A DNA stretch of 64,000 nucleotides from Microbacteriaceae bacterium (GCA_014377425.1 JACMPQ010000018.1:1-64000), one strand, 5' to 3'; shown: positions 15,467-21,194, counted from the first letter of the stretch. The notes: generated by a model not told the origin, from the letters alone. Numbers and translations are program-made.

Positions 15467-16627
15467 TTAGTTTGCCGAGCACCGCACGTTGGTTTTCCCT
15501 TGACCCGCGGAGAGCGCCACATTGCTGCAGGTCACAACGTTTGCGAGGACCGGGGTCAACGCATAGCCAAACCCGCTGCCGTTGACCGTGGCCGAGTTGT
15601 CTCGGAACACGTTACGCGTGCCCCAGCCTTTGAGAATCTCGTGGGTCTGAAAGCCGTCTTTCGGTGAATTCACCCCGGTGTTGTTCGAAATGATCCAGTC
15701 GTTGCCCTTCACGTTCATCCACGCAGAGGCGCCGGCCGGGTCAATTTTGCTGCCGTCGAAGACGTTGCCGGTTACGATCCCGGAAGTTGTTCCTTCCTTG
15801 ATATCGATACTCTCGGCAGTCGTCGCATAGATCGTATTGTCGCTGATGGTGTTCCGGTCGCTTTTATCCGGTTCGCAATTGCTCAGCGCGCACCAGTTTT
15901 TTTGCGCTGTTCCAATGTAAATACCTTCACCAAATTTCGGTTTCAACAGCCCGGTGTCGTGAACAATGTTGTGGTTCACCAAATTGTCGGTACTGAAGGT
16001 TCGCAGGTGAATGGCTTCATCACCAATTTGATAGACCTGCAGATTACGGATGATGCTTCCGACCGTTGCGTCGGCAACGATCCCCTTCTGCCCGTTGGTC
16101 ACGCTGAAGCCGACGAGGTTCCAGTAGCTCGCGCGGGACAGGTGAAACACGTAGCCAGCACTATTGTCGGCGCCGTCTAAGACGCTCTCTGAACTGCCGC
16201 AAAGAAAAATTGGCTTACTGGCGGTACCGGAGGTTTCCGCTACGAAATTTCCGGTGAAGGTGCCTATCCCGAGCGAAATCACGTCTCCCGGCTTGGCGTT
16301 TCCAAGCGCTGTGGTCAATTCAGCTGCGGAATTGGCTTGCACCGTGGCTGCGGGGCAGTCCGCGGCGATCGGTGCCGGAACGACTACGTTCGGTGTCTCC
16401 CCAGATGGGTGCGGTGTGTTTTTCGGCTCCTTGGTCCGGCTCCGCACCGGGCTTGGGCTTGGGCTTGGTCTTGGGCTGACAAGCGTTTGCGCGCTTTGCT
16501 GCCCTTGGTTAGCTGAGGTTCTCCCTAAAAACTGCGCGACGACGGTAATCCCACCAAAAATGGCCGCCCCAACCAGCATCGCCACCAGCATGGCTGCTAT
16601 CGGACGCCGAACAATCAGCTTTTTCAA
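15467..16627 (-). CDS. Membrane-anchored right-handed beta-helix protein (polysaccharide-lyase-like fold)
   Basis: A 386-residue protein with a basic N-terminus, one membrane anchor (about residues 11-34) and a Pro/Ser linker with an SPSPSP run, followed by an extracellular parallel beta-helix domain. Visible helix turns include GDVISLGIGTFTGNF, NLVGFSVTNGQKGI, NHNIVHDTGLLKPKFGEG and SIDIKEGTTSGIVTGN. Cysteines in WCALSNCEPD suggest a disulphide. This is the pectin-lyase fold used by pectate lyases, chondroitinase B-like enzymes and epimerases, but catalytic residues cannot be assigned. It is 36 bp downstream of a second, larger beta-helix gene and part of the GT2 locus, so it may cut, modify or bind the polymer made there. 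Confidence 0.7.
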   Translation of the reverse strand: MKKLIVRRPIAAMLVAMLVGAAIFGGITVVAQFLGRTSANQGQQSAQTLVSPRPSPSPSPVRSRTKEPKNTPHPSGETPNVVVPAPIAADCPAATVQANSAAELTTALGNAKPGDVISLGIGTFTGNFVAETSGTASKPIFLCGSSESVLDGADNSAGYVFHLSRASYWNLVGFSVTNGQKGIVADATVGSIIRNLQVYQIGDEAIHLRTFSTDNLVNHNIVHDTGLLKPKFGEGIYIGTAQKNWCALSNCEPDKSDRNTISDNTIYATTAESIDIKEGTTSGIVTGNVFDGSKIDPAGASAWMNVKGNDWIISNNTGVNSPKDGFQTHEILKGWGTRNVFRDNSATVNGSGFGYALTPVLANVVTCSNVALSAGQGKTNVRCSAN

Positions 16628-16663
16628 TCCCGTAAACCCCCCTTGACGCCGACCGGTGGCCGA

Positions 16664-18877
16664 CTATGCGTGCTGTGCCTGCCGGGCATCCGATTCTGCT
16701 CGAAGCAGGTCGCTAACGGTTACCACGCCCTTCGAAAGCGAACTCAGCGGCGCGAGCTCTGAGTATGGATCAACTATGCCGATATTGCGGCGCCGCACAC
16801 TGGAAATAGCAGAAATCAGCACGAGAAGACCCAACAGCGTCCACATGATCGTCAGGGGCTGAAAAATGGTCCCCAGAATCACGAAGAATGATTTCGTTGA
16901 CTCCCACCGAGTGAGATCGTTCAGCGACACGTAAACTCCGGGAGCGCGTTTCACGTCCAGCCCACTCGGCCCGGACCCCGAAATTGTGTTGTTACTGACA
17001 CGAGACCCTTTGGCATCGCCAATCAATGTGATTGCGTGATTGGTTACGTGCTCGATTTTGTTGCGCTCCACGTCTGATCTACTCGTTCCGCGGAGATAAA
17101 TGCCGATTTGCCCACCGTCGACGATGTTGCTTGTCACCGTCGCATCCGTGACGCCGTCCCTCAAGGCAATTCCCTGGGTTACCGAGCCGGTGACAGTGTT
17201 TCCCACCACCGCAACCGTTCTGGTTCCCCCGGTGACCACAATTCCCCCGCGGTTATTCGCGATCGTGTTGCCCGAGATTGTCACGTTGATACCGTTGTTG
17301 ATCATGATGCCGTAGCGACCGTTGCTGGATGATCGTGAGTTGGAGATTCGGTTGTTGCCGAAGACATCGATCGAGGTCCCGACTGCACTTGGCCCGGTGG
17401 CGAGCGGCCGACCGTCTACCGCTATCCCGTTCCGCCCGTTTCCTGTAGCGGTCAACTGGTCAAAGACCACACCGCTTGTCGCCCGCGCCAGAGAGAACCC
17501 GTCTACACCGTTTTTAATTGCCGAGCTGTCGCTCACCTTGCTGTTGGTCACGTTGCGATGAAAGGTCATTCCGTTCACCAAGCTATTGCTCACTATGGAA
17601 TTTCGTACTTCCACCCCATTGGCGTTGGTAATGAACAAGCCGTAGGCATTCTTATCGAAAATCACGTTACTGATCAGAGCAGACACGTAGCTAAAACCGT
17701 TGAGGTCTGGCTCAAGCGACAGCGACCCAGCGCCGTCGCCGGCCGGGTAAATTTCACTCCCGTAAATCTTGGGGTTTATCGTCGCCGGGTCGTTGTCGGT
17801 CACAGCTCCCGGCGCCAACGCTGCCGGGGTCGCTGCGATCGCCCCGACAACGACTTTTCCATCTTTGCCCGTGGTCACAGTGCTTTTGGTTTCGCCGGGA
17901 AGAACCGTCCCGGTGAGGGAGACCCCGCCGGTGACGCCGGACCAAAATCCGAGATCGTGAAATTTGACGTTGGACAGGGCCGCATGGCCTCCAATTATCC
18001 GCACATACGCGCGACCGTCTGCTGTTTTGACATCGGGCGCGCCGGTACCGCGGTCCCAACTGGAAACCTCGACCGGCCTCTCTTTCGTACCCTCGATGGT
18101 GAGAGAACCGCCGATGGTAATAATCGACACAAAAGCGCGGGGCTCGCTGAGCAGCCGTATCACCAATCCAACGCCACTGCGCAGACTCAGGGTCGCTCCG
18201 CGCTCAATGATGATGCTCTCGGAGAGGATGTAGGAACCGTCGGGTTGACGAACGAAGGTGCGCGGTGACAGCAGGGTGAGATCACCGACGGTGTATTCCG
18301 CTGCCCGCGGCACGAGGACCAGGGTGTAAAAGTTGCCGGTAGCCATTCGATACGGAACGTGGTGACTTACCCCCGTCCATTCAGCGGCCTTGGCGACGGA
18401 TCGAACGCTGATCAGCCGTCGCTGCTCCGTGGCGACAAGGAGCGCCTCACTATGACCGTCTCCCGGATATTTGAGTCCCTCGGGCGAAGTCGTTGCTGGA
18501 GCGCTTGCCCGAACTGAAGGGGTGGGAGTGGGGCTAGCTGTCATCGGGAGCGGACTGGCCTTTTCACCCGGAGCCGGGGTCGCCGAAGTGCTGGGACTCG
18601 CTGCAGTGCTGGGACTCGCTGCGGTGCTGGGACTCGCTGCGGTGCTGGGATTTGCTGGGTCAGTGGGACCTGCTGGGTCAGTGGGATTTGCTGGGTCAGT
18701 GGGACCTGCTGGGCTCGGGGTCGCCGACGCGTCTGGGGTCGTGTTTGGCTCCACCGCCTCCGCAGCAAGCGGAATTCCAAAACCCAAGGAGACCACGATC
18801 AAAGCAGCGGCAGCCGCACGAAAAAGAGCGCCTCGATCGCGTCTTTCACGCCGACGACGGGGTTCGCAGGAAATCAC
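16664..18877 (-). CDS. Large secreted, C-terminally membrane-anchored parallel beta-helix protein
   Basis: A 737-residue protein. It has an N-terminal signal segment (about residues 19-41) and a 90-residue Pro/Ala/Thr/Ser linker built of TDPANP and PSTAAS repeats. Then come a domain containing GGSLTIEGTKERPVEVSSW and FHDLGFWSG, a long run of PbH1 beta-helix turns (NGIAVDG, YGIMINNGINVTISGN, RGGIVVTGG, IGIYLRGTS), a membrane helix near residue 680 and a cytoplasmic tail. The layout recalls AlgG-type mannuronan C5-epimerases and NosD-like proteins, but the DPHD catalytic motif of AlgG is not seen. GTG 18877 overlaps the GT2 stop (GTGA), so translation is coupled; an ATG 25 codons upstream is less likely. 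Probable partner of the GT2 synthase. Confidence 0.7.
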   Translation of the reverse strand: MISCEPRRRRERRDRGALFRAAAAALIVVSLGFGIPLAAEAVEPNTTPDASATPSPAGPTDPANPTDPAGPTDPANPSTAASPSTAASPSTAASPSTSATPAPGEKASPLPMTASPTPTPSVRASAPATTSPEGLKYPGDGHSEALLVATEQRRLISVRSVAKAAEWTGVSHHVPYRMATGNFYTLVLVPRAAEYTVGDLTLLSPRTFVRQPDGSYILSESIIIERGATLSLRSGVGLVIRLLSEPRAFVSIITIGGSLTIEGTKERPVEVSSWDRGTGAPDVKTADGRAYVRIIGGHAALSNVKFHDLGFWSGVTGGVSLTGTVLPGETKSTVTTGKDGKVVVGAIAATPAALAPGAVTDNDPATINPKIYGSEIYPAGDGAGSLSLEPDLNGFSYVSALISNVIFDKNAYGLFITNANGVEVRNSIVSNSLVNGMTFHRNVTNSKVSDSSAIKNGVDGFSLARATSGVVFDQLTATGNGRNGIAVDGRPLATGPSAVGTSIDVFGNNRISNSRSSSNGRYGIMINNGINVTISGNTIANNRGGIVVTGGTRTVAVVGNTVTGSVTQGIALRDGVTDATVTSNIVDGGQIGIYLRGTSRSDVERNKIEHVTNHAITLIGDAKGSRVSNNTISGSGPSGLDVKRAPGVYVSLNDLTRWESTKSFFVILGTIFQPLTIMWTLLGLLVLISAISSVRRRNIGIVDPYSELAPLSSLSKGVVTVSDLLRAESDARQAQHA
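18588..18713. repeat. In-frame 18-bp tandem repeats encoding the Pro-rich linker
   Basis: Seven contiguous 18-bp units of two related types (GTGCTGGGACTCGCTGCG and TCAGTGGGACCTGCTGGG on the plus strand) encode the six-residue units PSTAAS and TDPANP in the beta-helix protein. The unit length preserves frame, so copy number can change linker length without breaking the gene. Confidence 0.9.
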
Positions 18878-20211
18878 GACGCCTCTTCTACCGAAAGCGT
18901 TCTCGCCGTCTGTCCGTCGCCGCCGATGGAATCGTCTCGCCGAGTTAGCCAACCCTGTCGGTTCATCGTGAAGAACGCATAAACCTTGATCGGAAGCGCG
19001 ATCAGAATCACAGTGAAGGCCACGACGGGAAGCAAAAATATTTCTAGGGGATAGCGACGAAGATGCGAAAAACCGCGGATTCCGCGAGCGATCAACAACC
19101 AGGCAATTGCCACAAAAAAACCCAGCCCCGAAATCTGAAGTCGACTAAAGATGAGATATCCTAGTGTCAGGGTCATTGTCACCGGCGTCAGCAGGATCTG
19201 GAGGACAGTGATCTTGGTGACGAACGGGACTCGCCACAACCAGCCGCGCGCAATAGCCGTGATGTAGCAGCGGTACGAATTTCGGCTCCAGCGGATTCGT
19301 TGCATGACAAACGCACGGAACGTCGCGGGAAACATCGATATGGCATGGGCCGATGACTGGTGCACTGTTTTGTACCCAGAAGCAAGCACCAACCAGGTGA
19401 GTCGCCCATCGTCTCCGGCAATGCAGCGGCGTCCGAAGAAGAACTCGTTTTCGAGGTGTTCCAACACCGGCAGCACAGCCAACCTGCGATAAACCGCAGT
19501 GCGACCGGAAATACAGGGCACGGCCCCCGCCCGACCCATTGCTGGAACGTAATCGTAGTAGCGAAGATTGACGAGCCAATCAGCGATGCGGCGCCAAATA
19601 CTGCTCTCACGTTGATAGACATTCTGTTGGGTGCTGACGCCACCCACCATCGGGTCAATAAACGGCATCTGCACGTTAGTGAGCAGTTCTGAATCCCACG
19701 CGGTGTCAGAGTCAACCAGAATCAAAAGTTCATACTTGGCCGCGCGGATGCCAACCCCAAGAGCCGAACGTTTGCCCGCGTGGTGGAAGAGGATGGGCGT
19801 GATCCGAGAATCACCCAGCGCTTGAATTCGCAGATAGCTTTCTAGATCGGCTACGTCGAGCACGATGATGATTTCGTCGGGATTTTGATTGCGCCACGTC
19901 TCCAGGCAACGCATCAAAATATCCGGGTCCTCGTGAAAGGAAGGCACAACGACGGAGGTGGTGGTGCGGAAATCACTTCGAATCGGGCGGGCTAGACGGG
20001 AGAGAATCACACGGTAAAGCCACAGCGACCAAACAATGGTTCCGGCGATTGCCAAGGGGAAAAACGCGACCATCGCCGAAAGAAAGTCGCCGACAAATGA
20101 CCAACTAAATGGTGTATTCACGGGATCGGCCAAATACACGAGGGAAACCATAGGAATCGAACGGGTCCTTGTCTTGGCGATACGGGAGGCAGTTCGAATG
20201 ATCCCCCTCAT
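18874..20211 (-). CDS. Membrane GT2 polysaccharide synthase (hyaluronan synthase/NodC type)
   Basis: A processive family-2 glycosyltransferase of about 445 residues. There is an N-terminal membrane helix pair, then the cytoplasmic GT-A domain with VVVPSFHEDPDILMRCLE, VDSDTAWD (the DxD metal site), CISGRTAVYRR, GDDGRLTWLVLASGY (catalytic base region) and QRIRWSRNSYR (the QxxRW acceptor motif). Four C-terminal membrane helices follow. QxxRW plus GDD is diagnostic for synthases that polymerise and extrude a glycan. The start is uncertain: ATG 20211 is given, 20304 and 20151 are in frame, and none has a good ribosome-binding site. Its stop overlaps the next gene's GTG. No PilZ domain is seen. The polymer made is unknown. 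Confidence 0.85.
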   Translation of the reverse strand: MRGIIRTASRIAKTRTRSIPMVSLVYLADPVNTPFSWSFVGDFLSAMVAFFPLAIAGTIVWSLWLYRVILSRLARPIRSDFRTTTSVVVPSFHEDPDILMRCLETWRNQNPDEIIIVLDVADLESYLRIQALGDSRITPILFHHAGKRSALGVGIRAAKYELLILVDSDTAWDSELLTNVQMPFIDPMVGGVSTQQNVYQRESSIWRRIADWLVNLRYYDYVPAMGRAGAVPCISGRTAVYRRLAVLPVLEHLENEFFFGRRCIAGDDGRLTWLVLASGYKTVHQSSAHAISMFPATFRAFVMQRIRWSRNSYRCYITAIARGWLWRVPFVTKITVLQILLTPVTMTLTLGYLIFSRLQISGLGFFVAIAWLLIARGIRGFSHLRRYPLEIFLLPVVAFTVILIALPIKVYAFFTMNRQGWLTRRDDSIGGDGQTARTLSVEEAS

Positions 20212-20460
20212 TCGTTTGAACCGAGTAGCTCCGCAAAGTACCCCTAAATTGGGCCCATTCACGTCAACCCCACGGCTCTGGCACGAGTATATGTACCCCG
20301 ACATGGCACCGTCAATTAGCTGAATTTCGATCAATTCATTATTGAAAAATAGGGAAATTATCAGCAAATTATCTAACTTTGCCTAAGCACCTCCCAGCAA
20401 AGATCAGCTATTTTCTTCGACCCCGAAGTCCTCGCATAAAGGAACGGCCCAAACAGAGAA

Positions 20461-20511
20461 AGGCCCACACTAAGGCAAGGTCCGCGCTAAGGCATGGCCC
20501 GCGCTGAGAAA
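20461..20511. repeat. Degenerate 17-bp tandem repeat
   Basis: Three contiguous 17-bp units of the form AGGTCCGCGCTAAGGCA with substitutions, and a weaker fourth unit just upstream. They are non-coding and have no spacers. They lie next to the tRNA-Ala remnant. Confidence 0.6.
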
Positions 20512-20521
20512 TAGCCAGGGC

Positions 20522-20600
20522 AAAAAATCCCCGTAATCATGATGATCCCGGAGGTTACTTATGGATACAAGGGGATTCAAATCCCTGACCCTCTGTCTGA
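20522..20600 (-). pseudogene. Diverged duplicate of the tRNA-Ala(GGC) 3' end and its terminator
   Basis: This stretch aligns without gaps to 28963-29041, the 3' half of the intact tRNA-Ala gene plus its downstream terminator, with about 17 differences over the best 75 bases. The T-arm (AGGGATTTGAATCCCCT on the minus strand) and acceptor strand are recognisable, and a hairpin followed by TTTTTT remains. The D-arm and anticodon arm are absent. It has the same orientation as the intact tRNA and lies 8,441 bp away on its 3' side, as expected for the distal attachment site of an element that integrated into the tRNA 3' end. Confidence 0.75.
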
Positions 20601-21194
20601 CGTTAGTGAAAATGCGAGACTGCTTTTGGCGCGAGTTTTCCATATTTTTGCTGGTGAGTAGGCCCCATAGGAACAGTCCTCCGCTATTCGAAATTCGCGT
20701 TTTTTTGCATCACTTGATGCTCAAAGCGTGACTAAATCGTTAACGGCTGGCCCCCGAAGTAGCATCAGCCCTGCCGCACACATTGTGTGTCCCGCCGTGC
20801 AGCCGATCGTCGCATCAAAGACATCCGTGCCGTCGCGAACACTGCTGTCGGGGACGGATGCCTGATCAAGCCGATGCTGTTGCCTCGCGATGGTTGACGA
20901 AGGTAACGGCTCCGAAAACGCCACAAACGGCTACCCGCTTCATTGCATTCTGCCGCGCTAGATAACTGAACACTAGGTACGGCACGTGGCCCTCGGCAAA
21001 CCCAAGGGGGGAAAGTTTCACAGCGGAAACAGTCGTAATGGATTATGGCGTTTCATCAGGAAATCTTGCGCAGGAACGCCTACGCGCACAAAAATCCTGC
21101 AAATCATCCGGAGTATAAGAAATAAAGCGTCGCTCCCATGGCAAGTGACGCAACCGGCCAGACTGTCGCACCGCTCGCAGTCGCCCAGCGCCGA

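Follow-up and report, generated by a model that had tools for sequence, protein, structure and literature searches.

An actinobacterial operon couples a GT2 synthase to an AlgG-fold protein and a PL31 lyase homologue, a candidate system for an acidic surface polysaccharide

Gram-positives have few synthase-dependent matrix polysaccharides; PNAG is the only one that a 2020 survey describes as genetically and structurally characterised in them, and the alginate operons of that survey lie largely in Pseudomonas (PMC7112194). In the alginate epimerase AlgG, the histidine of a DPHD motif is the probable base that takes the proton, and neutralisation of the carboxylate falls to an arginine (PMC4444821). 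PsAly, a PL31 alginate lyase that prefers polymannuronate, has Lys221 and Tyr184 as its proposed base and acid, with the substrate carboxylate neutralised by a cation bound to Glu181, Glu216 and Asp219 (PMC6796002). In marine bacteria PL31 enzymes break alginate down (PMC13235733, which also cites one Cellulophaga enzyme of the family with glucuronan activity). For brown-algal alginate steps, a review reports an actinobacterial origin (PMC8307928), and the closest bacterial ManC5-E sequences are actinobacterial, at ~30% (PMC11468063); for the GDP-mannose dehydrogenase of the algae, such an origin is found to lack strong support. Streptomyces that carry PL41 homologues have no known alginate pathway (2024 paper, PMC11468063).

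Here we describe an operon on the minus strand of a 64,000-nucleotide stretch of Microbacteriaceae DNA (the window), taken from a source genome of 2.42 Mb in 100 contigs that is 97% complete. On balance, we think that it directs the synthase-dependent production of an acidic surface polysaccharide, most likely one based on glucuronate and of the 1,4-linked glucuronan type. All three open reading frames are present, in the order GT2, BH1, BH2: a GT2 synthase (likely reading frame 18874–20151); BH1, an AlgG-fold right-handed beta-helix protein that is a putative uronan C5-epimerase or a derivative of one (16664–18877); and BH2, a homologue of PL31-family polysaccharide lyases that is predicted to be tethered at its N terminus (15467–16627). 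The stop codon of GT2 (TGA, 18876–18874) overlaps the start codon of BH1 (GTG, 18877–18875) in a GTGA at 18877–18874, and 36 bp (16628–16663) separate BH1 from BH2, both as first read from the window alone. Across 75 related loci a 4-bp overlap is the commonest spacing at both junctions, by far so at the first, and most relatives have it where the window has the 36-bp spacer. The earlier note gave the whole unit as 15467–20367; its upper limit, TTG 20367, is merely the start of the longest possible GT2 frame. Homology to orthologues starts ~70–100 codons downstream of that TTG, and ATG 20151 (425 amino acids) is the likely start because homology begins near there. The ~1 kb between this codon and the next minus-strand reading frame (20152–21194; 52% GC) is presumed to hold the promoter; no riboswitch or any other Rfam match was found in the ~1 kb upstream of GT2.

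The GT2 carries the motifs of a processive synthase, DSD, GDD and Q(R)xRW, as DSDT (19713–19702), GDDGR (19416–19402) and QRIRW (19302–19288). Across 19 orthologues the residues D, S, D, T, then G, D, D, G, R, and finally Q, R, R, W are invariant, and the DxD, GDD and QxxRW motifs noticed earlier are thus both present and conserved. The protein matches Pfam Glyco_tranf_2_3 (1.8e-20) and the NodC model (9e-39, yet under that model's cut-off), and its best PDB match is hyaluronan synthase, which is distant (4e-27 with a GT2 profile). Alginate synthase and cellulose synthase were absent from the PDB matches of that profile, which leaves room for kinship with either. Chitin synthase (PF03142) was also considered; the match is weak, and hyaluronan synthase and NodC score higher. 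Hydropathy indicates ~4 hydrophobic segments, one N-terminal and three C-terminal. In a GT2 tree the window sequence is placed among Microbacteriaceae, 18 orthologues in a sample of its order share 49–72% identity, and no second close copy was found in the source genome.

In that order sample (198 genomes; threshold 1e-30), GT2 matches occur in 22 genomes and in 14 of 73 genera. Four of these 22 are distant (31–33% identity), and no beta-helix partner was found beside those of the distant copies that were examined. In the closer loci with enough sequence BH1 and BH2 adjoin GT2; in L035 the lyase precedes GT2. A wider scan, with one genome per species for 84,980 species, detected relatives encoded in 240 stretches, and 79 of these loci were analysed; carriers include Microbacteriaceae, Micrococcaceae, Cellulomonadaceae, Demequinaceae, Kribbella, Streptomyces, Micromonosporaceae, Thermomonosporaceae and others. 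All Actinomycetota loci with sufficient sequence (75/75) show the order GT2–BH1–BH2, so the arrangement is not a matter of chance, and the survey of GT2/beta-helix co-occurrence that the earlier note called for shows conservation beyond the source genome. A nucleotide-sugar dehydrogenase gene comes next in 57 of the 75; among the remaining 18 are a few whose sequence stops before such a gene could be seen. The distribution of the operon in Actinobacteria is wide but patchy, since in a 396-genome sample of the phylum just three genomes besides the window's reach 1e-90 for GT2. Two loci labelled Stenotrophomonas maltophilia P13 (L048) and Vibrio cholerae 35D (L072) encode this GT2 at 75% identity, the latter with the whole operon; they are most likely contaminating contigs. 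At another locus (L130:7323-10723) a relative of the window GT2 (46%) adjoins a weakly matching nucleotide-sugar dehydrogenase, without beta-helix genes; this is possibly a minimal or different version of the system.

BH2 comprises 386 residues from TTG 16627. Its single N-terminal hydrophobic segment, in whose place several homologues have a lipobox, would tether the protein if it is not cleaved. A phmmer search of all PDB chains gave one match, the alginate lyase PsAly (6kfn; 8.4e-47). An AlphaFold2 model (pLDDT ~98 over residues 90–386) superimposes on 6kfn with an r.m.s.d. of 1.8 and a TMt of 0.90 (Foldseek, 5.7e-20), and VIA ranks 6kfn at Z 42.1 with the next entry at 30.4. By sequence and by predicted structure, BH2 is a clear homologue of PsAly. 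In 53/53 sequences, that of the window included, PsAly Lys128, His154, Glu181, Tyr184, Glu216, Asp219, Lys221 and Lys252 all have identical equivalents; in the window the catalytic pair Tyr184 and Lys221 corresponds to Tyr237 and Lys277. The Arg156 position is Arg or Lys across the family. Because the catalytic residues and those of the carboxylate-neutralising cation site are kept, the substrate should be a uronan. The PsAly residues Asp188 and Lys191 are replaced family-wide, by Ala and Asn.

The window copy of BH2 also has Ser301 at the position of the cation ligand Asp246 and Asn305 at that of Asp250, where Asp is kept in 50/53 and 49/53 sequences, respectively. In PsAly, Asp250 is conserved among known members and its change to Asn leaves 0.25% of the activity (PMC6796002). 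This copy may therefore be nearly inactive, which leaves the homology unaffected. The two changes, of the D246S and D250N type, may be an assembly error, against which stands the intact reading frame. The source genome encodes two further PL31-like proteins, on contigs C47 and C89. The first (L134:6675-7709) is a stand-alone secreted PL31 lyase with ADSWVDVKG intact and the Asp246 and Asp250 residues kept, encoded between housekeeping genes. The second (L135:8024-9751) has changed active-site residues and lies in an apparent exopolysaccharide cluster with chain-length-type, glycosyltransferase and acyltransferase-like genes, a setting in which PL31-like proteins accompany glycan synthesis in another context too.

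BH1 comprises 737 residues with hydrophobic segments at residues 21–39 and 676–694, in keeping with the secreted, C-terminally anchored protein that had been proposed. Searching the PDB with the window protein as a single sequence gave no match; AlgG surfaced only by way of a profile and a model. The profile (A3), built from 17 BH1 sequences, found AlgG (4ozy) first at 3e-22, then AlgE4 and AlgE6. For the predicted structure, AlgG ranks first both in Foldseek (2.4e-11) and in VIA (Z 36.5–36.7 over ~350 residues, r.m.s.d. 1.9–2.6; Z 36.7 goes with 351 residues and an r.m.s.d. of 2.3), and VIA ranks 1–7 are all AlgG, AlgE6 or AlgE4 (Z 32.7–36.7), with AlgE6 and AlgE4 at ~33. As judged from profile and model, BH1 is an AlgG-fold relative of C5-epimerases. 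NosD was considered as an identity for the beta-helix proteins and set aside, as the scores of 34.7 and 25.5 bits lie far below the curated cut-off (300); AlgG fits better. A search of plasmids for BH1 gave no match. Near the N terminus of BH1, window positions 18520–18750 encode a low-complexity Pro/Ser/Thr/Ala repeat linker with STAASP and TDPANP units. The earlier note had proposed structure prediction and fold searches for both beta-helix proteins; they returned an epimerase (AlgG, Z 36.7) and a lyase (6kfn, Z 42.1), and the two proteins no longer count as being of unknown kind.

The active-site region of BH1 is conserved in an altered form. By sequence alignment, His440 (17558–17560) and Arg465 (17483–17485) are the equivalents of the catalytic His319 and the neutralising Arg345 of AlgG; conservation is 52/54 for His440, 51/54 for Arg465, 48/54 for Arg441 (17555–17557) and 40/54 for Asp435. 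In the main clade the YG-x-DPHD of AlgG is replaced by a conserved DG-x-V-x-HR, mostly DG[LVI]V[LFM]HR, with the loss of Asp317, Pro318 and Asp320 (AlgG numbering). The window protein reads TFHR where most relatives have V[LFM]HR, so the earlier report that DPHD is absent from it stands. Four distant relatives (L037–L040) have YGFDPHD intact together with the downstream Arg, and the motif His is missing from BH1 of L035 and L120. One further protein (L128:5767-7707) reads SGFFLHD, seemingly intermediate between DPHD and HR, and four loci in Actinoallomurus, Actinomadura and a Streptosporangiaceae strain (L099, L100, L108 and L122) carry a tandem BH1 pair between GT2 and the lyase. Retention of the predicted base and neutraliser amid altered surroundings fits a changed substrate.

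The main alternative for BH1 is that catalysis has been lost and the scaffold kept, so that the protein guides the polymer or shields it from the lyase within the same system. Such a role has also been proposed for AlgG, and most BH1 proteins have lost three residues of the AlgG motif, L035 and L120 the histidine as well. The remaining pattern of His, two Arg and Asp amounts to a new conserved motif that exceeds the apparent needs of a scaffold, and we regard the non-catalytic role as a serious possibility that falls short of being probable. It concerns BH1 only and is compatible with a glucuronan product, so our estimates for the different readings overlap.

The nature of that product is best approached through the donor sugar. 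At other loci a fourth gene, for a UDP-glucose-dehydrogenase-like protein, is usually part of the operon; in the source genome it is unlinked (contig C56). The protein encoded there is the only PF00984 protein of the genome, which holds no GDP-mannose-dehydrogenase candidate, and scores 317 bits with the UDP-glucose dehydrogenase 4a7p and 164 with AlgD 1mfz; for a linked dehydrogenase the two scores are 314 and 198, specificity being judged here by similarity. In L035 an unrelated dehydrogenase of the Klebsiella/HasB type (598 bits) occupies the same place. Two unrelated UDP-glucose dehydrogenase lineages thus adjoin the same synthase, the best sequence evidence that the donor is likely to be UDP-glucuronate and not GDP-mannuronate.

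One alternative is a heteropolymer like hyaluronan or the type-3 capsule: a dual-specificity GT2 would add a second UDP-sugar besides GlcA, and the GlcA residues would be the target of BH1 and BH2. A UDP-glucose dehydrogenase beside the synthase is the hasA–hasB arrangement, with a HasB-like enzyme in L035, and hyaluronan synthases and NodC are closest to GT2. We nevertheless consider it unlikely: the likeness to hyaluronan synthase is distant, with ~4 hydrophobic segments in GT2, and AlgG and PsAly, the closest relatives of BH1 and BH2, have homopolymeric uronans with 1,4 linkages as their substrates. Mannuronan is the substrate of both these enzymes, and some relatives (L037–L040) preserve YGFDPHD; a truly alginate-like polymannuronate, with a dehydrogenase accepting GDP-mannose and BH1 and BH2 acting on mannuronan, is still quite improbable in view of the UDP-glucose-type dehydrogenases in two independent lineages and of a source genome with no second dehydrogenase candidate and no PilZ protein. 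That the operon serves the use of external uronans, with GT2 incidental, would agree with alginate breakdown by marine PL31 enzymes (PMC13235733) but is scarcely credible: GT2 heads the operon in 75/75 loci, in tight coupling with the rest, and the conserved neighbours found in the order sample include neither a transporter nor a gene of uronate catabolism.

Against the glucuronan reading, which we favour, stand the polymannuronate preference of PsAly, a precedent for PL31 glucuronan activity in one Cellulophaga enzyme only, the DPHD losses of BH1, the changes in the window BH2 and the few transmembrane segments of GT2. Sequences and models establish how the genes are ordered and coupled, to which families the four proteins belong, and that the lyase residues, like the epimerase His and Arg, are conserved; from these we infer the sugar, its linkage, extrusion and every enzyme activity, as follows. 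The UDP-glucose dehydrogenase would make UDP-GlcA in the cytosol, and the membrane GT2 would polymerise it and perhaps, with its ~4 hydrophobic segments, extrude it unaided. BH1, held outside by its C-terminal helix, would bind the nascent chain in an AlgG-type groove and probably turn some GlcA residues into IdoA by inversion at C5, or else shield the chain. Metal-assisted beta-elimination by tethered BH2 would cut the chain, to control its length, clear stalled chains or allow release. These steps would parallel AlgD, Alg8, AlgG and AlgL, with outer-membrane parts unneeded in a single-membrane cell. The minimal Gram-positive synthase-dependent module put forward earlier holds up in this form, with beta-helix proteins that are tethered and probably modify or cut the glycan; a fourth gene, which it lacked, is normally present.

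A compact operon that would build, edit and cut an acidic polymer in the manner of alginate seems to be undescribed in bacteria. The earlier note knew of no described system with this gene set, and our literature search, of incomplete coverage, likewise found no described GT2/epimerase/PL31 operon in actinobacteria. The locus is a candidate acidic-polymer machine for many environmental actinobacteria, including Streptomyces, Arthrobacter and Cellulomonas, and offers a new epimerase motif as well as candidate enzymes for making defined glucuronans. It is relevant, too, to the origin of alginate enzymes in brown algae, and it makes testable the question of alginate-type synthesis in Streptomyces with PL41 relatives. 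As a more tentative extension, and one that we would not call probable, this could be a bacterial glucuronan/iduronan pathway in which BH1 represents a new class of AlgG-fold, polymer-level C5-epimerase acting on glucuronan (DG-x-V-x-HR), with the DPHD-bearing actinobacterial branch near the source of the brown-algal enzymes.

Among known systems, the lyase RbmB of the Vibrio polysaccharide cluster is likewise a beta-helix lyase accompanying a matrix polysaccharide, but its match to BH2 is one of general fold (Z 27.7). The brown-algal enzymes ManC5-E and PL41 are of kinds related to BH1 (through its DPHD relatives) and, more distantly, to BH2, but are eukaryotic and GDP-mannose based. The hyaluronan capsule operon (hasA–hasB) also combines a synthase with a UDP-glucose dehydrogenase in a Gram-positive; it has no epimerase-like or lyase gene of the BH1 and BH2 families, and the present GT2 is only a distant relative, for which fewer membrane segments are predicted. 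BH2 resembles PsAly of Paenibacillus sp. FPU-7 (6KFN) in fold, catalytic Tyr/Lys and first cation site, and differs in the family-wide Ala/Asn at Asp188/Lys191, in the changed Asp246 and Asp250 of the window copy and in its setting in a synthase operon. BH1 resembles the mannuronan C5-epimerase AlgG (4NK6) in fold (~350 residues) and in the His319 and Arg345 equivalents, with DG-x-V-x-HR in place of YG-x-DPHD and an added C-terminal membrane anchor.

The alginate system of Pseudomonas and Azotobacter (AlgD, Alg8–Alg44, AlgG, AlgL) is the closest in plan. As the earlier note had argued, the locus is not simply one for alginate: by similarity the source genome has no AlgD-type GDP-mannose 6-dehydrogenase, the window BH1 has the epimerase fold without DPHD, which is replaced in most operon members, and PilZ (PF07238; Alg44), noted as missing before, has no match anywhere in the 97% complete genome (the control matched in 5/14). 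The operon is set apart from it by a UDP-glucose-type dehydrogenase, a HAS/NodC-like GT2 and a PL31-like lyase where alginate operons have the PL5 enzyme AlgL, and by single-membrane actinobacterial hosts in which outer-membrane parts are absent and the proteins are predicted to be membrane-tethered. What the two systems share is the set itself, gathered in one operon: a dehydrogenase for an NDP-sugar, a GT2 synthase, a protein of the AlgG C5-epimerase fold and a known or predicted uronan lyase.
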